Shown here: positions 27,117-33,049 of the stretch, piece after piece
Layout of the letters: the number at the start of each line of letters is the position of its first letter
Numbering within the stretch: the stretch's first letter is position 1
DNA from: Anaerolineaceae bacterium
Lineage (GTDB): Bacteria > Chloroflexota > Anaerolineae > Anaerolineales > Anaerolineaceae
DNA: 64,000 nt
NCBI GenBank assembly: GCA_030653365.1
Contig: JAURZL010000011.1
Span: 1 to 64,000 of the forward strand
Reading direction: 5' to 3'
The notes under the pieces: model-generated
Database searches by the model: none
Seen by the model: the letters and a program-made list of their open reading frames with translations, nothing else
Told to the model about the DNA's origin: nothing
Position numbers and translations under genes: made by a program

Positions 27117-28226
27117 ATGCCACAAATTTATCCGTTTACCGCGATCGTTGGTCAAATACGTATGAAACGGGCTTTGATTTTGAATGCAATTGATCCAAGA
27201 ATTGGTGGTGTTTTGATTCGTGGAGAACGGGGAACAGCCAAATCAACTGCAGCCCGTGGGTTAGCAGCTTTATTGCCGATGGTAAAAGCAGTTTCAGATT
27301 GTCGATTTAGTTGCGATCCGGATAGTCCCAATACCTGGTGTACAGAATGCAAAGAACGGCATGAAAAAGGTGAACCGCTGCCAGTTACAATAAAGCCAAC
27401 AGCCTTTATAAACCTGCCGGTGTCTGCGACAGAAGATCGTGTGGTCGGAACTTTGGACATTGAACGGGCAATTCAAAAAGGCGAACGCAGCTTTGAGCCC
27501 GGTGTTTTGGCTGCTGCAAATCGTGGTTTGTTATACATTGATGAAGTAAATCTATTAGATGATCATGTTGTTGATGTCCTGCTTGATTCTGCAGCGATGG
27601 GGATGAATATTGTGGAACGGGAAGGTATTTCATTTGTTCACCCAGCACGTTTTATTCTGGTTGGCACCATGAATCCCGAAGAAGGTGATTTACGGCCACA
27701 GCTCCTGGATCGCTTTGCTCTATCGGTCGACATTCATGGAATTCTCGACAAACGCGAACGGGTGATGATCATGGAACGCAACATGAACTTTGAAGTCAAT
27801 CCGGAAGGTTTTCGTGAAGAATTTCAAGCAGCTGAAATTGAATTATCTGAACAAATTGAAACTGCAAGAAGATTGATCCCTAAAGTAAATCATAGCAGTC
27901 GTGACCTTATTACAATCGCCTCGCTGACCGCTTCTTTAGGAGTTGATGGTCATCGTCCCGATTTGGTGATCTTAAAAACAGCTCGTGCACAAGCTGCATT
28001 TGAAGGTCGCACATCCATTACTGATCTGGATATTGCTAAAGCTGCTGAGTTGGCTTTACCCCATCGCATGAAACGCGGTCCGTTTGATAAAGAAATAGCC
28101 ACTATGGAAGAGTTACGAGATCGCATTGAGCAATTAAGTGGCGGTCGTTCATCTGGTGATGATGGAGAAGATTCAGAACCTGATCCAACAAAAGAATCAA
28201 CTCCAAAAGCGGAAAAAAAAACTTAA
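27117..28226 (+). CDS. Magnesium/cobalt chelatase AAA+ subunit (ChlI-like)
   Basis: A 369-residue AAA+ ATPase of the ChlI/BchI family that powers metal insertion into tetrapyrroles. It has Walker A GERGTAKST (36-44), a ChlI-type cysteine insert (Cys62, 66, 75, 78), Walker B LLYIDEVNLL (138-147), a sensor GTMNPEEGDLRPQLLDRF and the helical C-domain SRDLITIASLTASLGVDGHRPD. The protein ends in an acidic/Pro linker (DDGEDSEPDP) and a nine-A run immediately before its TAA. A -1 slip there continues into the VWA frame, giving a ChlD-like fusion. No chlH/cobN or other cobalamin gene is in the window. GGGAAG precedes the ATG. Confidence 0.92.
   Translation: MPQIYPFTAIVGQIRMKRALILNAIDPRIGGVLIRGERGTAKSTAARGLAALLPMVKAVSDCRFSCDPDSPNTWCTECKERHEKGEPLPVTIKPTAFINLPVSATEDRVVGTLDIERAIQKGERSFEPGVLAAANRGLLYIDEVNLLDDHVVDVLLDSAAMGMNIVEREGISFVHPARFILVGTMNPEEGDLRPQLLDRFALSVDIHGILDKRERVMIMERNMNFEVNPEGFREEFQAAEIELSEQIETARRLIPKVNHSSRDLITIASLTASLGVDGHRPDLVILKTARAQAAFEGRTSITDLDIAKAAELALPHRMKRGPFDKEIATMEELRDRIEQLSGGRSSGDDGEDSEPDPTKESTPKAEKKT
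28213..28221 (+). other. A9 slippery site: probable -1 frameshift linking ChlI-like and VWA frames
   Basis: The zero frame reads GAA AAA AAA ACT TAA. A -1 slip on A_AAA_AAA (28214-28220) gives AAA AAC TTA AGC GGG GGG GAT and runs without stop into the VWA frame. Seven G residues follow at 28229-28235. The fused product would have about 694 residues. Ribosomal slippage, polymerase slippage or a homopolymer sequencing error are all possible. Confidence 0.75.
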
Positions 28227-28258
28227 GCGGGGGGGATACAACCACTGAAATTCCGGAA

Positions 28259-29200
28259 ATGGGGGATGCTGTGCCTGATCCTGCATCGGTTTTTCAAAAC
28301 GCTCAATCCAATTGGTGGGAAGGCGGACAAAAAATCAAAACAGGTTCCGCTTTTTCTCCACGACGATTAAATACGCCATTGGACAAGATTATTCGTCAGC
28401 GAGCCGGGCGAAGATCCATGACTCGCACAAAAAGAAAAAGGGGAAGATACACACAATCCAAACCTTCTGCAGGAAATGCAGAAGACCTGGCATTCGATGC
28501 TACACTTCGAGCTGCAGCTCCTTTTCAAAATCGCAGGTATGAACAGAGGAAGAAGGTTGCCTTTGCCATTCAGCCACAGGATTACATGCGCAAGGTCAGA
28601 GTGCGAAGAACTGCAAATTTAATCCTGTTTGTAGTGGATGCATCCTGGTCGATGGCTGTGGCAGAAAGAATGGCAGCAGCCAAAGGTGCGGTCCTTTCTC
28701 TATTAAATGATGCGTATCAACGTCGTGATCGGGTTGGAATGGTTGTGTTTCAAAAAGATAGGGCTACATTGGTGATGTCACCAACTAATTCTGTTATGAT
28801 GGCACAACGCGCTTTACAAGATATCCCTGTTGGAGGAAAAACACCTCTATCAGCTGGAATGCGACTGGCATATGAAGTGCTGATGAGAGAAAAGATTACT
28901 ATGCCGGATGTCTTGCCATTGATGGTTTTATTGACAGACGGGGCTGGAAATGTTGCGATGGGAAATAAATTGGGTCCATTAGCAGAAGCCTACCAAATAG
29001 CACGTATGATCGCTGAGGAACATGTCCATAGTGTCGTGATTAATCTTGAACATCCAGCTTTTGATCGGGGATTGGCGCAAGCATTGGCTGACAACTTGTT
29101 ATCGCCCTGTTATTCAATAGAAGATTTACGAGCAGAAAGTCTTTATCAAGCCGTCAGACAGGAAATAGGTTTGATTCAACAAAGGACAAAATCTAAGTAA
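28259..29200 (+). CDS. VWA-domain half of a ChlD-like chelatase subunit
   Basis: 313 residues from ATG 28259, but the frame is open back to the A9 site at 28213. Residues 1-110 are a basic linker (RRSMTRTKRKRGRY). A von Willebrand A domain follows with MIDAS DASWS (Asp127, Ser129, Ser131), GGKTPLS and LLTDGAGN. This order equals the C-terminal half of ChlD/BchD, whose N-terminal half is ChlI-like. The ATG has no convincing ribosome binding site (CCGGAA only), so production by frameshift from the upstream gene is more likely than separate initiation. The fused length fits the family's usual 650-700 residues. Confidence 0.88.
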   Translation: MGDAVPDPASVFQNAQSNWWEGGQKIKTGSAFSPRRLNTPLDKIIRQRAGRRSMTRTKRKRGRYTQSKPSAGNAEDLAFDATLRAAAPFQNRRYEQRKKVAFAIQPQDYMRKVRVRRTANLILFVVDASWSMAVAERMAAAKGAVLSLLNDAYQRRDRVGMVVFQKDRATLVMSPTNSVMMAQRALQDIPVGGKTPLSAGMRLAYEVLMREKITMPDVLPLMVLLTDGAGNVAMGNKLGPLAEAYQIARMIAEEHVHSVVINLEHPAFDRGLAQALADNLLSPCYSIEDLRAESLYQAVRQEIGLIQQRTKSK

Positions 29201-29366: not shown

Positions 29367-29795
29367 ATGACATTGAAATCAGAACAAAATACAAAAACAC
29401 GATCCATTTTAGTAACCATCATTGTTGCTTCGGTTGTTTGTTATTGTGTAGGTGCGATTTTTTTGCAAGTTGGAAACCAGATTAACCAACCTACCCCGTC
29501 TCCTACCCTAACTGGTTCACCAACATTGACATTTACCAGTGCTCCTCCGCTGTCATTACCCTCACCCATTATCTTTCCATCAGCTACCTCCACAGCAACA
29601 GTTACTGAAACATGGACACCAACAGTGACTTATACTCCTTTTGCTACACGGACGAGGACAGTTACTGCGACAACAACGGTTACTGATATTCCTACTGAAA
29701 CTCAGCAACCGCCTACTGCGACCAATACTATGCCAATACCAACCAATACGATTCCCGTTGATACTCCAATTCCAACAGAAATAACAAATCCTTAA
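29367..29795 (+). CDS. Thr/Pro-rich single-pass membrane protein
   Basis: 142 residues. A basic N-terminus and one membrane helix (about 13-35, SILVTIIVASVVCYCVGAIF) are followed by about 100 residues of Thr/Pro/Ser-rich repeat (PTPSPTLTGSPTLT, TATNTMPIPTNT). No folded domain is visible. The tail should lie outside the membrane and could be glycosylated or span the wall. A complex leader RNA lies directly upstream and an M42 peptidase gene starts 34 bp downstream. Function unknown. Confidence 0.75.
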   Translation: MTLKSEQNTKTRSILVTIIVASVVCYCVGAIFLQVGNQINQPTPSPTLTGSPTLTFTSAPPLSLPSPIIFPSATSTATVTETWTPTVTYTPFATRTRTVTATTTVTDIPTETQQPPTATNTMPIPTNTIPVDTPIPTEITNP

Positions 29796-29829: not shown

Positions 29830-30903
29830 ATGACAGATCTCAAAGAAACACTCAAGAAGCTGATCTCATTACCAGGATTATCTGGATATGAGGCTCCTGC
29901 AAGAGAAGTAATTGAAGCTGCCTGGCTTCCAATGGTTGATGAAGTCAGTGTCAGCCTATTAGGAAGCTTGCATGCTTTACGTCGGGGGAGTGGTTCTGAA
30001 CCCCGCCCAAGCATCTTACTGGCTGCCCACATGGACGCTATTGGTTTGATGGTAACTGGCATACAAGACGGATTATTACGTTTTACGGAAGTTGGTGGGG
30101 TGGATCCGAGAATTTTACCAGGTCTGCGGGTTACAGTTCATGGCAGGAAAAATTTACCGGCTGTAGTGGTTCAACCTGCAGATTATTTGCTTGAACCTTC
30201 TCAACGGGGAAAATCGGTTGCAATGGATTATCTTTTTATTGATACAGGATTGGAAGAAATAGAAGTTGACGAACTTGTCAGGGTTGGTGACCTTATTTCC
30301 TTCGCTCAGGAACCATTGGAATTATCTGGGAAAACCATTGTCGGGCACAGCCTTGATAATCGTATTTCTGTTGCAGCCATAACCTATTGTTTACAAGAAT
30401 TGCAGCACATGAAACATAACTGGGATGTATGGGCAGTTGCCACAGTTCAGGAAGAAGAAACATTAGGGGGAGGTTTCACTTCTCCATTTGAACTTAATCC
30501 TACAATTGCGGTGGCGATTGATGTTACTTTTGGCAAAGGACCAGGTGCAAATGATTGGCGTACGGTCAGTTTGTCAAAAGGTCCGACATTAGGCTGGGGA
30601 CCAAATGCTCATCCCTATGTTCATAAGAAATTTTTAGACGTAGCTGAAGAGCTTGAGATACCTTTTCAGAAAGAATATATCCCACGCCATTCTGGAACGG
30701 ATGCATATGCAATGCAAGTTGTGGCTGGTGGATATCCTACGATGGTGATAGGGATTCCTCTGCGGTATATGCATACACCAGTCGAAATGATCGCTATGAA
30801 AGATATGGAACGGGCTGGCCGGCTATTGGCTGAGACAATCGTTCGTCTTGAGGTTGATTTTATGGATAAGATAACCTGGGATGAGGTGAAAGATGAAGAG
30901 TAA
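29830..30903 (+). CDS. M42 family aminopeptidase (paralogue 1)
   Basis: A 357-residue M42 (TET/glutamyl aminopeptidase or endoglucanase M-like) metallopeptidase that trims peptides. Metal ligands are visible: His67 and Asp69 (AAHMDAIG), bridging Asp176 (HSLDNR), Glu208/Glu209 (VQEEE), Asp231 and His315 (RYMHTP). The PDZ-like dimerisation insert occupies about 75-160. The bridging motif reads LDNR rather than LDDR, as seen in some family members. First of three tandem paralogues; it overlaps the next gene by 11 bp. Confidence 0.93.
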   Translation: MTDLKETLKKLISLPGLSGYEAPAREVIEAAWLPMVDEVSVSLLGSLHALRRGSGSEPRPSILLAAHMDAIGLMVTGIQDGLLRFTEVGGVDPRILPGLRVTVHGRKNLPAVVVQPADYLLEPSQRGKSVAMDYLFIDTGLEEIEVDELVRVGDLISFAQEPLELSGKTIVGHSLDNRISVAAITYCLQELQHMKHNWDVWAVATVQEEETLGGGFTSPFELNPTIAVAIDVTFGKGPGANDWRTVSLSKGPTLGWGPNAHPYVHKKFLDVAEELEIPFQKEYIPRHSGTDAYAMQVVAGGYPTMVIGIPLRYMHTPVEMIAMKDMERAGRLLAETIVRLEVDFMDKITWDEVKDEE

Positions 30904-31978
30904 AAAAGTCTTAAGTCAAATTCCTGCAATTGGAGAAGATCAGATCAAATTGCTTGAAAAACTCTCCAATGCTGTTTCAGTATCAGGTGAGGAAAGCGAA
31001 GTTCGAGCGATTGTAATGGAAGAAATTAAGGATTTCGCCGATGATGTTAAAGTCGATGCTTTGGGAAATGTACTGGTTACATGCAAATCTAAAGTCAAGA
31101 ATCCGATTCGGGTGATGGTGGCAGCACACATGGATGAAGTTGGATTCATGCTGGTTGATGATGAGGGAGAAGGTTTGTTCCGGTTTGAGATTATTGGTGG
31201 AATTGATAACCGTCAACTGGTCGGTAAACCTGTTTTGGTAGGGAAAGAAAAACTACCTGGTGTGATTGGTGCAAAACCCATTCACCTGACCACTGCAGAA
31301 GAAAGAAAAAATCCAATTCCGTTGGACAATCTCAGAATTGATGTAGGACCAGGTAATTCGAAAAAATGTAAAGTAGGAGACCGGGCAACTTTTGCAACCC
31401 GCTTTGAAACATGGGGACCCAGTCTGGTTGGAAAAGCGTTAGATGATCGCCTCGGAGTAGCAACATTAATTGAATTAATCAAGCACATGCCTGGGAATAT
31501 TGAGTTATTAGCTGCTTTTACCGTTCAGGAAGAAAACGGGCTACGTGGTGCCCGGGTAGCTGCTTATAGCATGAACCCAGATATTGCTTTTGTGCTTGAT
31601 TCGACGCCAGCCAATGATTTGCCGGTGTGGGATGATGAAGAAAACAGTCGCTATAATGTCAAATTGAATCATGGTCCGGCGATTTATCGGTTGGATGCAT
31701 CCACGTTATCCGATCCACGATTGATAAATTTGCTGGCTGAAACAGGAGACCAATATGGAATTCCTTACCAATTTCGTCAACCTGGTAAGGGAGGTACAGA
31801 TGCCGGGGCAATTCATAAACAACGTGGTGGAATTCCATCTGTATCCATCTCTGTACCAGGCAGATATGCCCATACTGCTATTTTAATTGCACGTAGAGAT
31901 GATTGGAAAAATACCCTTGCGTTGATTTATGCAACCCTATGTAATGTGACCAAAGAATTTTTCTTGACTGAAAGATAA
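30893..31978 (+). CDS. M42 family aminopeptidase (paralogue 2)
   Basis: A 361-residue M42 peptidase. Ligands: His79/Asp81 (AAHMDEVG), the LDDR Asp, the VQEENGLRGA Glu pair (QEE), the VLDSTPAND Asp and the final His of RYAHTA. It has a longer N-terminal segment than its neighbours. The start overlaps the end of paralogue 1 by 11 bp, so translation is coupled. The three copies are too divergent to be recent duplicates and may differ in substrate residue preference, since M42 enzymes often co-assemble into mixed dodecamers. Confidence 0.93.
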   Translation: MKSKKVLSQIPAIGEDQIKLLEKLSNAVSVSGEESEVRAIVMEEIKDFADDVKVDALGNVLVTCKSKVKNPIRVMVAAHMDEVGFMLVDDEGEGLFRFEIIGGIDNRQLVGKPVLVGKEKLPGVIGAKPIHLTTAEERKNPIPLDNLRIDVGPGNSKKCKVGDRATFATRFETWGPSLVGKALDDRLGVATLIELIKHMPGNIELLAAFTVQEENGLRGARVAAYSMNPDIAFVLDSTPANDLPVWDDEENSRYNVKLNHGPAIYRLDASTLSDPRLINLLAETGDQYGIPYQFRQPGKGGTDAGAIHKQRGGIPSVSISVPGRYAHTAILIARRDDWKNTLALIYATLCNVTKEFFLTER

Positions 31979-32050
31979 ATTCGCTTTCAGAACCATTTTT
32001 AGAAGTGAAATTATGAAAGATAAGAATTAAAACGTCATCAGGAGTGAATT

Positions 32051-33049
32051 ATGAAATCATTGATCAAGAAATTAGTTGAGACAGTCGGCCCTTCTGGATA
32101 TGAATCCAAAATTCGAGAAGTAATTCGTGGGGAGGTAGAAGGATTTGCTGATGAGATTCAGGTTGACGCAATGGGAAACCTGATCATAAAAAAGGGAGAG
32201 AAAAAAGAAGGTGGCTTAAGAGTTATGCTTTCAGCTCATATAGATGAGATTGGAGTTATGGTTACCCACGTGGATAAGAATGGTTTTGCTCGATTCACCA
32301 CCATTGGGGGAGTTCGCCCGCACACATGCTATGGAAGCCGGGTACGATTTTTGAATGGATCCGCTGGTGTCATAGGCGGAGAAAGACTTGAAAATGCTAA
32401 CCATGTGCATACGATCGAATCAATGTATATTGATTTAGGTGCAAGCAATCCGGAAGATTGTCCCGTAAAAGTCGGTGATGTTGCTGCTTTTGATAGACCC
32501 TTTGAGGATTTGGGAAACCGTGTAATTTCGAAAGCGATGGATGATCGGGTCTGCTCTGCAATCCTGATTGAAACGCTCAAGCTTGTCAAAAATAGTCCAC
32601 ATGAATTGTTCTTTGTTTTCAGTACCCAGGAGGAAGTTGGATTACGTGGAGCAACAACAGCGGCTTATGCGATTGATCCCGATCTTGGAATCGCGGCGGA
32701 TGTTACCATGTCGGGAGATACACCACGCGGAATTAAGATGGATATATCGTTGGGAAAGGGACCAGCGATTAAGGTAAAAGATGGCGGTATGTTGGCTGAT
32801 CCACGTTTGGTGGATGCAATGGTACAATGCGCTGTGAAACATAAAATTCCCTACCAAATGGAAGTGTTGTTAGGCGGCACCACTGATGCAAAAGCAATGC
32901 AAATCTCTCGTGCAGGAATGCCAGCTGGATGTGTATCAGTGCCGACACGTTATGTGCATACTCCTTCGGAAATGGTGGATATCAATGATGTTAATAATGC
33001 AGTAAAATTATTATCCGCGTTAATCAGTGAGCCAATTAAATTAGTATGA
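32051..33049 (+). CDS. M42 family aminopeptidase (paralogue 3)
   Basis: A 332-residue M42 peptidase with the full ligand set: His63/Asp65 (SAHIDEIG), MDDR bridging Asp, TQEEVGLRGA Glu pair, AADVTMSGD Asp and RYVHTP His. This copy is closest to the standard bacterial M42 length. AGGAG lies before the ATG at 32051. The stop overlaps the start of the solute-binding lipoprotein (ATGA), giving direct coupling. Together with the neighbours it suggests peptide scavenging. Confidence 0.94.
   Translation: MKSLIKKLVETVGPSGYESKIREVIRGEVEGFADEIQVDAMGNLIIKKGEKKEGGLRVMLSAHIDEIGVMVTHVDKNGFARFTTIGGVRPHTCYGSRVRFLNGSAGVIGGERLENANHVHTIESMYIDLGASNPEDCPVKVGDVAAFDRPFEDLGNRVISKAMDDRVCSAILIETLKLVKNSPHELFFVFSTQEEVGLRGATTAAYAIDPDLGIAADVTMSGDTPRGIKMDISLGKGPAIKVKDGGMLADPRLVDAMVQCAVKHKIPYQMEVLLGGTTDAKAMQISRAGMPAGCVSVPTRYVHTPSEMVDINDVNNAVKLLSALISEPIKLV

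Follow-up and report, generated by a model that had tools for sequence, protein, structure and literature searches.

Antonov (2020) is said to have described, in cobalamin producers, frameshifted chlD genes (fs-chlD) that give rise to both the small and the medium chelatase subunit from one chlD. The ChlI/BchI and BchD proteins of magnesium chelatase are encoded by separate genes, and in chelatases an AAA+ pair of this type drives a large subunit. Frameshifted chlD genes have already been reported in Anaerolineaceae as well. In the accessible text of that report, some species carry a separate chlI, cobN and chlH are missing, there is no B12 or chlorophyll pathway, and the function is stated to be unknown (Kuznetsov, Milenkin and Antonov 2022, PMC9227772, where the Antonov 2020 genes are also cited). 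The best-known parallel is dnaX, whose frame change is ribosomal in E. coli and arises by polymerase slippage at an A9 run in Thermus thermophilus, according to the accessible parts of PMC3711429, PMC5009743 and PMC1088944. Here we describe a chlD gene in a 64-kb window, meaning the whole stretch of DNA that was analysed, from a member of the family Anaerolineaceae; an earlier note on this DNA had likewise named Anaerolineae as the likely host group.

The frame junction and its conservation

All features of the locus lie on the + strand. An AAA+ open reading frame resembling ChlI occupies 27117..28226, encodes 369 aa and doubles as the N-terminal half of a longer product. It ends GCG GAA AAA AAA ACT TAA, with an A9 run at 28213..28221 that provides an in-frame A_AAA_AAA slip site (GAA AAA AAA ACT) and a zero-frame TAA at 28224..28226 that terminates the short product. 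The VWA frame lies at -1 relative to the ChlI frame, overlaps it by 40 nt and is open from about 28184 to 29200, so that a one-base slip yields a ChlD-like product of 694 residues with the linker and VWA domain (28184..29200) as its C-terminal half. The earlier note had read the end of the AAA+ frame and the lengths of both products in the same way. A third-frame (+1) TGA at 28246..28248, 24 nt past the A run, would terminate mRNAs that had slipped in the opposite direction. No other A run of at least nine occurs in the window.

Both halves match a single model, TIGR02442 ("putative cobaltochelatase"), at 499.8 bits for the N-terminal and 258 bits for the C-terminal part; neither half alone reaches the cut-off of 779 bits. 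By sequence, the closest solved structures are ChlI for the AAA+ half (8osf, 6l8d and 1g8p) and a BchD fragment for the VWA half (2x31). The long product joins the ChlI-like motor, common to both products, to a VWA domain with DASWS, which we take to be a MIDAS-type motif.

We sampled 121 Anaerolineaceae genomes and matched the VWA half in 110 of them, with G069 matching weakly. Of the 110 loci taken, which include the window's own (L005), two were dropped because no ChlI half was in reach (L078 and L105). The VWA frame was at -1 in 106 of the remaining 108 loci, the window included; it was at +1 in L095 and fused to the ChlI frame in L110. An A run of 7-11 lay in or overlapped the frame overlap in 107/107 unfused loci, wholly inside it in 87, and all 107 had A_AAA_AAA in phase with the ChlI frame. 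The conservation of the A run in relatives, which the earlier note had proposed as a check, is thus found throughout the family. Run lengths were A7 in 21 loci, A8 in 5, A9 in 64, A10 in 16 and A11 in 1. All 21 A7 runs sat in the one phase that permits tandem slippage on A_AAA_AAA, and all 21 were followed by G. Frame overlaps totalling 6,675 nt contained 108 runs of A7 or longer, versus 25 in 208,708 nt elsewhere in the same genes, an enrichment that exceeds chance.

The seven other loci of the window's genus carried A9 (six) or A10 (one) and were all at -1, so the break is not merely a read error of one assembly. Named genomes, when scanned, yielded 80 loci: the site was present in 78 at -1 and in one at +1, and was absent from one at -1; for the 53 non-repeat loci the corresponding numbers were 51, one and one. 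Among the cultured species in this set, Levilinea saccharolytica carries A9 (L236) and Pelolinea submarina MO-CFX1 carries A7 (L284). Long products measured 674-709 aa in nearly all of 100 rows above 600 aa (the values 613 and 631 come from cut sequences), with conserved domain order and strong conservation of both halves. Homopolymers are error-prone, and the class does include homologues that are simple in-frame fusions, as would be expected if the true run were A10 and the gene an ordinary fusion, or if the gene had decayed. However, the same break occurs at the same place in 106/108 Anaerolineaceae loci from many assemblies, complete genomes among them, and the strong conservation of both halves argues against a pseudogene. 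We regard the chance of an assembly error or decayed gene as negligible, and sequencing error or decay is ruled out by conservation across loci. The break reflects programmed recoding of a chlD gene (fs-chlD) and is not an error. Judged by its frames, its slip site and their conservation, this one gene almost certainly makes both a ChlI-like and a ChlD-like protein.

The VWA half could in principle be made as a separate protein by reinitiation or translational coupling from the first VWA-frame ATG past the stop (28259..28261), which would give 313 aa, or from a GTG at 28271 that the earlier note did not mention. An ATG lies at +35 from the stop in 6/8 loci of the genus, the GTG is preceded by a Shine-Dalgarno (SD)-like stretch (-8.4 kcal/mol), and in 27/107 Anaerolineaceae loci an SD-like element accompanies at least one start located no more than 120 nt from the ChlI stop. 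However, the ATG lacks a Shine-Dalgarno sequence (+0.4 kcal/mol), which bears out the earlier note's remark that it has no ribosome binding site, and the ATGs at that distance in the genus lack one too; this start is probably unused. The GTG at +47 is present in just 2/8 genus loci, 80/107 Anaerolineaceae loci lack any start with an SD-like element over the same 120 nt, and 26/107 have no ATG, GTG or TTG at all in that interval. Reinitiation would also leave the conserved A run and the fused homologues unexplained, and we consider it very improbable.

Comparison beyond the family drew on 249 genomes of the class Anaerolineae, of which 227 matched, with loci chosen among the matches listed. We took 100 loci from 38 other families: 60 spread over families, 20 with long frames suggestive of fusion, and 20 further loci that were mostly more members of families already sampled and included one fusion-like case (G265). 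Of these, 65 were at -1 (63 with in-frame A_AAA_AAA), 2 at +1 and 33 fused, and the fused fraction is not a prevalence because the loci were chosen partly for suspected fusion.

Slip-site classes and the route of the frame change

Ordinary reading of the gene would give the 369-aa ChlI-like AAA+ protein and a one-base frame change at A9 the 694-aa ChlD-like AAA+/VWA protein, built on that same motor; one gene would thereby supply the two subunits of a bipartite AAA+ complex. The frame could change on the ribosome or during transcription. If RNA polymerase slips on the A9 run, mRNAs with 9 As would encode the short protein and those with 10 As the long one; other run lengths would lead into the third frame, where the stop 24 nt on would again give a short protein.

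The slip sites fall into two classes. In Anaerolineaceae, the 55 nt past A7-8 runs folded more stably than shuffled sequences (26 loci, mean z -1.88, 50% below -2), whereas those past A9+ runs did not (81 loci, mean z -0.17, 4% below -2) and resembled control windows in the same genes (n = 636, mean z -0.05, 4% below -2). The same division was seen outside the family, with a mean z of -2.17 and 65% below -2 for A7-8 (26 loci from 7 families) versus -0.44 and 2% for A9+ (65 loci from 26 families). Rows without a slip site were left out of these run-length tests. The A7-8 stems start mostly 6 nt past the run, a position they have in common while differing in sequence, and a common alignment of these hairpins gave no shared fold. 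With their downstream hairpins, the A7-8 sites resemble classical ribosomal frameshift signals. Upstream of the slip, SD-like elements were in slight excess in Anaerolineaceae (-3.37 versus -2.61 kcal/mol, p 0.0025).

Genes with A9+ runs carry a different mark. Because polymerase slippage yields mRNAs in all three frames, the third frame would be expected to close early. A third-frame stop lay within 30 nt in 130/144 A9+ genes, compared with fractions of 0.36 and 0.29 at downstream and upstream control positions in the same genes, and a majority of members had one in 52/58 genus or family groups. For A7-8 genes the figure was 17/52, against control fractions of 0.37 downstream and 0.29 upstream. 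We then corrected for phylogeny with an unrooted FastTree tree of 203 rows, from which rows with fewer than 290 aligned ChlI residues were excluded. In independent pairs, the hairpin contrast (A7-8 versus A9+) was 3.9 versus 0.1 with a median p of 0.125, and the third-frame-stop contrast (A9+ versus A7-8) was 2.6 versus 1.4 with a median p of 1. After this correction the hairpin contrast is only suggestive and the third-frame-stop contrast is not significant. The tree implies 12 changes between A7-8 and A9+.

The window's site belongs to the A9+ class: it is an A9 run with a third-frame TGA at +24, and we found neither a downstream hairpin (z +0.6, -0.14 and -0.32 for 55, 60 and 90 nt) nor an SD-like element upstream. 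An 81-nt fold starting upstream of the run gave z -1.56. Together, the TAA at +2 and the TGA at +24 provide early stops for other slip lengths. Long runs are also rare in the family. In 714 other Anaerolineaceae coding sequences (754.5 kb), 3 A runs of at least nine were seen versus 22.4 expected from synonymous shuffles, and T runs of that length were seen 0 times versus 6.2 expected. Avoidance of this kind has been read as evidence of slippage, with nine as the length concerned in many genomes (PMC1088944, in its accessible part); for A9, replication slippage could also account for it. The three A9 runs lie in a solute-binding protein gene (L054), an unnamed ORF (L081) and the first codons of an ORF (L104), and may themselves be slip sites.

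The same two products could instead come from -1 programmed ribosomal frameshifting, with tandem slippage of tRNA-Lys on A_AAA_AAA and no strong stimulators at this site. The window's run satisfies A_AAA_AAA, so ribosomes could slip there; every A7 run in the family is in phase for tandem slippage and followed by G, and A7-8 homologues have hairpins at a mostly constant distance of 6 nt. In the accessible text of PMC3711429, three magnesium-chelatase genes gave 63, 40 and 10% frameshifting in E. coli, and a constant frame direction among orthologues is taken to indicate ribosomal frameshifting. By that rule, the near-constant direction in the family (-1 in 106/108 Anaerolineaceae loci) would point to the ribosome and against polymerase slippage; the class sample has 65 loci at -1, 2 at +1 and 33 fused. 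On the other side, the window's A9 lacks both a hairpin and an SD-like element, A9+ genes as a group lack hairpins, and they retain a third-frame stop for which -1 slippage on the ribosome would have no use. The ribosomal route is a serious possibility that we nevertheless hold to be less probable than slippage of the polymerase. The earlier note had assumed frameshifting on the ribosome; a programmed frame change is upheld, and the ribosomal route is uncertain for an A9 run of this kind. We favor RNA polymerase slippage on A9 as the most likely source of the one-base change in the window's genome, and the full reading, in which an fs-chlD gene makes two products by this route for a complex with no large subunit, has in our estimate a probability of roughly 0.55.

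The VWA frame is at +1 with runs of A10-A11 in L178 and L206 (both of family f43), L095 and L240. The four loci of family f43 comprise +1, -1 and fused arrangements, which suggests polymerase slippage in that family.

Fused genes in the class Anaerolineae

Among the 33 fused genes, 26 from 12 families retain an in-frame A_AAA_AAA in the linker, compared with 1 in 19,243 codon positions in other parts of the fused genes. Loci of this type include L136, L137, L142, L169 and L185-L196. In all 26, a -1 stop lies within 29 nt of the site, as against 20% for whole-gene and 27% for linker controls. Related arrangements are found in L205 (A_AAA_AAG, -1 stop at +5), in L181 (heptamer GGGAAAA, -1 stop at +17) and in the fused Anaerolineaceae member L110 (A10, -1 stop at +6). 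In such genes the long protein would be the default and slipping would produce the short one, an inverted polarity like that of E. coli and Thermus dnaX.

In 24 of the 26 genomes with a fused gene and site, the search for a further close ChlI (E up to 1e-90) found none; the two exceptions (G165 and G314) have a second close ChlI together with PF02514. A second close ChlI was found in 4/65 class genomes with split genes. In six fused genes both A_AAA_AAA and A_AAA_AAG are missing, and their genomes contain no second close ChlI, so the short product is not needed everywhere. Separate chlI genes did not turn out to go with fused genes that lack a slip site: in the 7 genomes whose fused gene has no in-frame A_AAA_AAA, a second close ChlI was found in none.

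On the unrooted FastTree tree, split and fused states interchange 16 times. These comparisons lead us to a broader proposal, which we put forward tentatively and rate slightly below an even chance: chlD in the class would keep making two proteins from one gene while switching between a ribosomal route (A7-8 with hairpin) and a polymerase route (A9+, no hairpin, both off-frames stopped) and between split and fused polarity, with the Anaerolineaceae product serving as an AAA+/VWA machine that derives from a chelatase but has no large subunit.

Genome context and relation to known systems

Profile searches of the window's genome gave no match to PF02514 (CobN/BchH), nor was the BchH/ChlH subunit of magnesium chelatase found, and CbiC/CobH (PF02570), the single corrin-pathway family searched, was not matched either. 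PF02514 was without a match in 121/121 Anaerolineaceae genomes, while 5/14 control genomes matched; CbiC was matched in 11/121. A role of the locus in an aerobic cobalt chelatase with a CobN-type large subunit would fit the best family match of both halves, TIGR02442, although each half alone falls below its cut-off, and PF02514 is matched in 9/65 of the split-gene class genomes searched. Given the absence of PF02514 here and across the family, and of CbiC here, we consider such a role very unlikely. For the window's genome it is largely refuted; it would regain weight if the large subunit were very divergent or if part of the assembly were missing. The earlier note had proposed that programmed frameshifting makes small and medium chelatase subunits here as it does in cobalamin producers. 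Its core idea, that a single gene encodes both a ChlI-like and a ChlD-like protein, is right but already known; its cobalamin and cobalt-chelatase context does not apply here. The complex is probably a remodelling machine of the AAA+/VWA type that derives from a chelatase and acts with neither CobN nor BchH.

Other contigs of the genome carry two more genes for ChlI-like AAA+ proteins, neither paired with a VWA gene (L002:1471-2616 and L003:1318-2553). One product is a separate ChlI of 381 aa with 61% identity; the other is ChlI-like and more distant, at 39%. Genes for Roadblock and V4R domain proteins adjoin the one at L002:1471-2616. By our reading of the matches, a separate close ChlI is present in 11/121 Anaerolineaceae genomes, 6 of which are among the 8 of the window's genus. 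The earlier note had suggested checking for cobN in the genome and for the lack of a separate chlI; here PF02514 was not matched and a separate chlI is present. It had also held that a separate chlI combined with an independently translated VWA protein would speak against its reading. Half of that combination is found, namely the 381-aa ChlI (61%) encoded on another contig, and it does not overturn the frame change, for which the slip site is conserved whether or not a genome has a separate chlI.

Downstream of chlD, the window encodes a Thr/Pro-rich protein of 142 aa (29367-29795) that probably has a membrane segment and matches no Pfam family, followed by three tandem M42-type peptidase ORFs (29830-33049), the first matching PF05343 and the other two clustering with it. 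Across 24 Anaerolineaceae genera, the recurring neighbors of chlD are a solute-binding protein (14), the 142-aa protein (12) and M42 peptidases (10). Upstream of chlD, 7/24 genera have a divergent B12-binding protein and 7/24 a MeaB GTPase (L039:5760-6185 (-), L070:11170-12171 (+) and their homologues); this pair occurs in a family in which CbiC was matched in just 11/121 genomes. We found no clear functional link among the recurring Anaerolineaceae neighbors. No widely recurring neighbor was found across the class families either: the widest was a predicted EamA-like transporter (7 loci in 7 families), and the other neighbors present in more than four families, among those listed, were ORFs antisense to chlD.

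The window thus adds one more fs-chlD gene to a family in which such genes were already reported; of the results, the comparison across the class is what specialists might find of interest. What is new, on computational grounds, is the contrast between A7-8 and A9+ sites (hairpin versus third-frame stop) and the apparent inverted polarity of the fused genes. The accessible text of PMC9227772, PMC3711429 and PMC5009743 holds no mention of inverted polarity or polymerase slippage of chlD, and we do not claim that these are unpublished. If our reading is correct, a single gene family has repeatedly exchanged its recoding mechanism and repeatedly inverted its default product, with the supply of two AAA+ subunits as the feature that seems to be retained. 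It would then offer a natural series for studying the replacement of one recoding mechanism by another, for which dnaX has so far been the best-known case. The data also point to a widespread AAA+/VWA pair, present in cultured species, that has no known large subunit or task.

Compared with the Anaerolineaceae genes of PMC9227772, the window has the same gene, family and frameshift signal. The accessible text of that study takes the frameshift to be ribosomal, whereas the A9+ group to which the window belongs looks more like polymerase slippage; it also describes a downstream stimulatory RNA structure as "usually" present and not required, and the window has none. The fs-chlD of cobalamin producers acts with CobN, for which the window's genome has no match. 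Magnesium chelatase provides sequence relatives of both halves, ChlI/BchI and BchD, but acts with a large subunit H that is likewise unmatched here. The dnaX gene, as covered in the accessible dnaX literature, differs in gene and complex, and its slip yields the short product in E. coli and Thermus, in contrast to the long product in the window. The two nevertheless share a single gene for two subunits of an AAA+ machine, the occurrence of either mechanism among homologues and the existence of both polarities, and the window resembles the Thermus dnaX type in having at least nine identical bases, here A9, at the frame junction.
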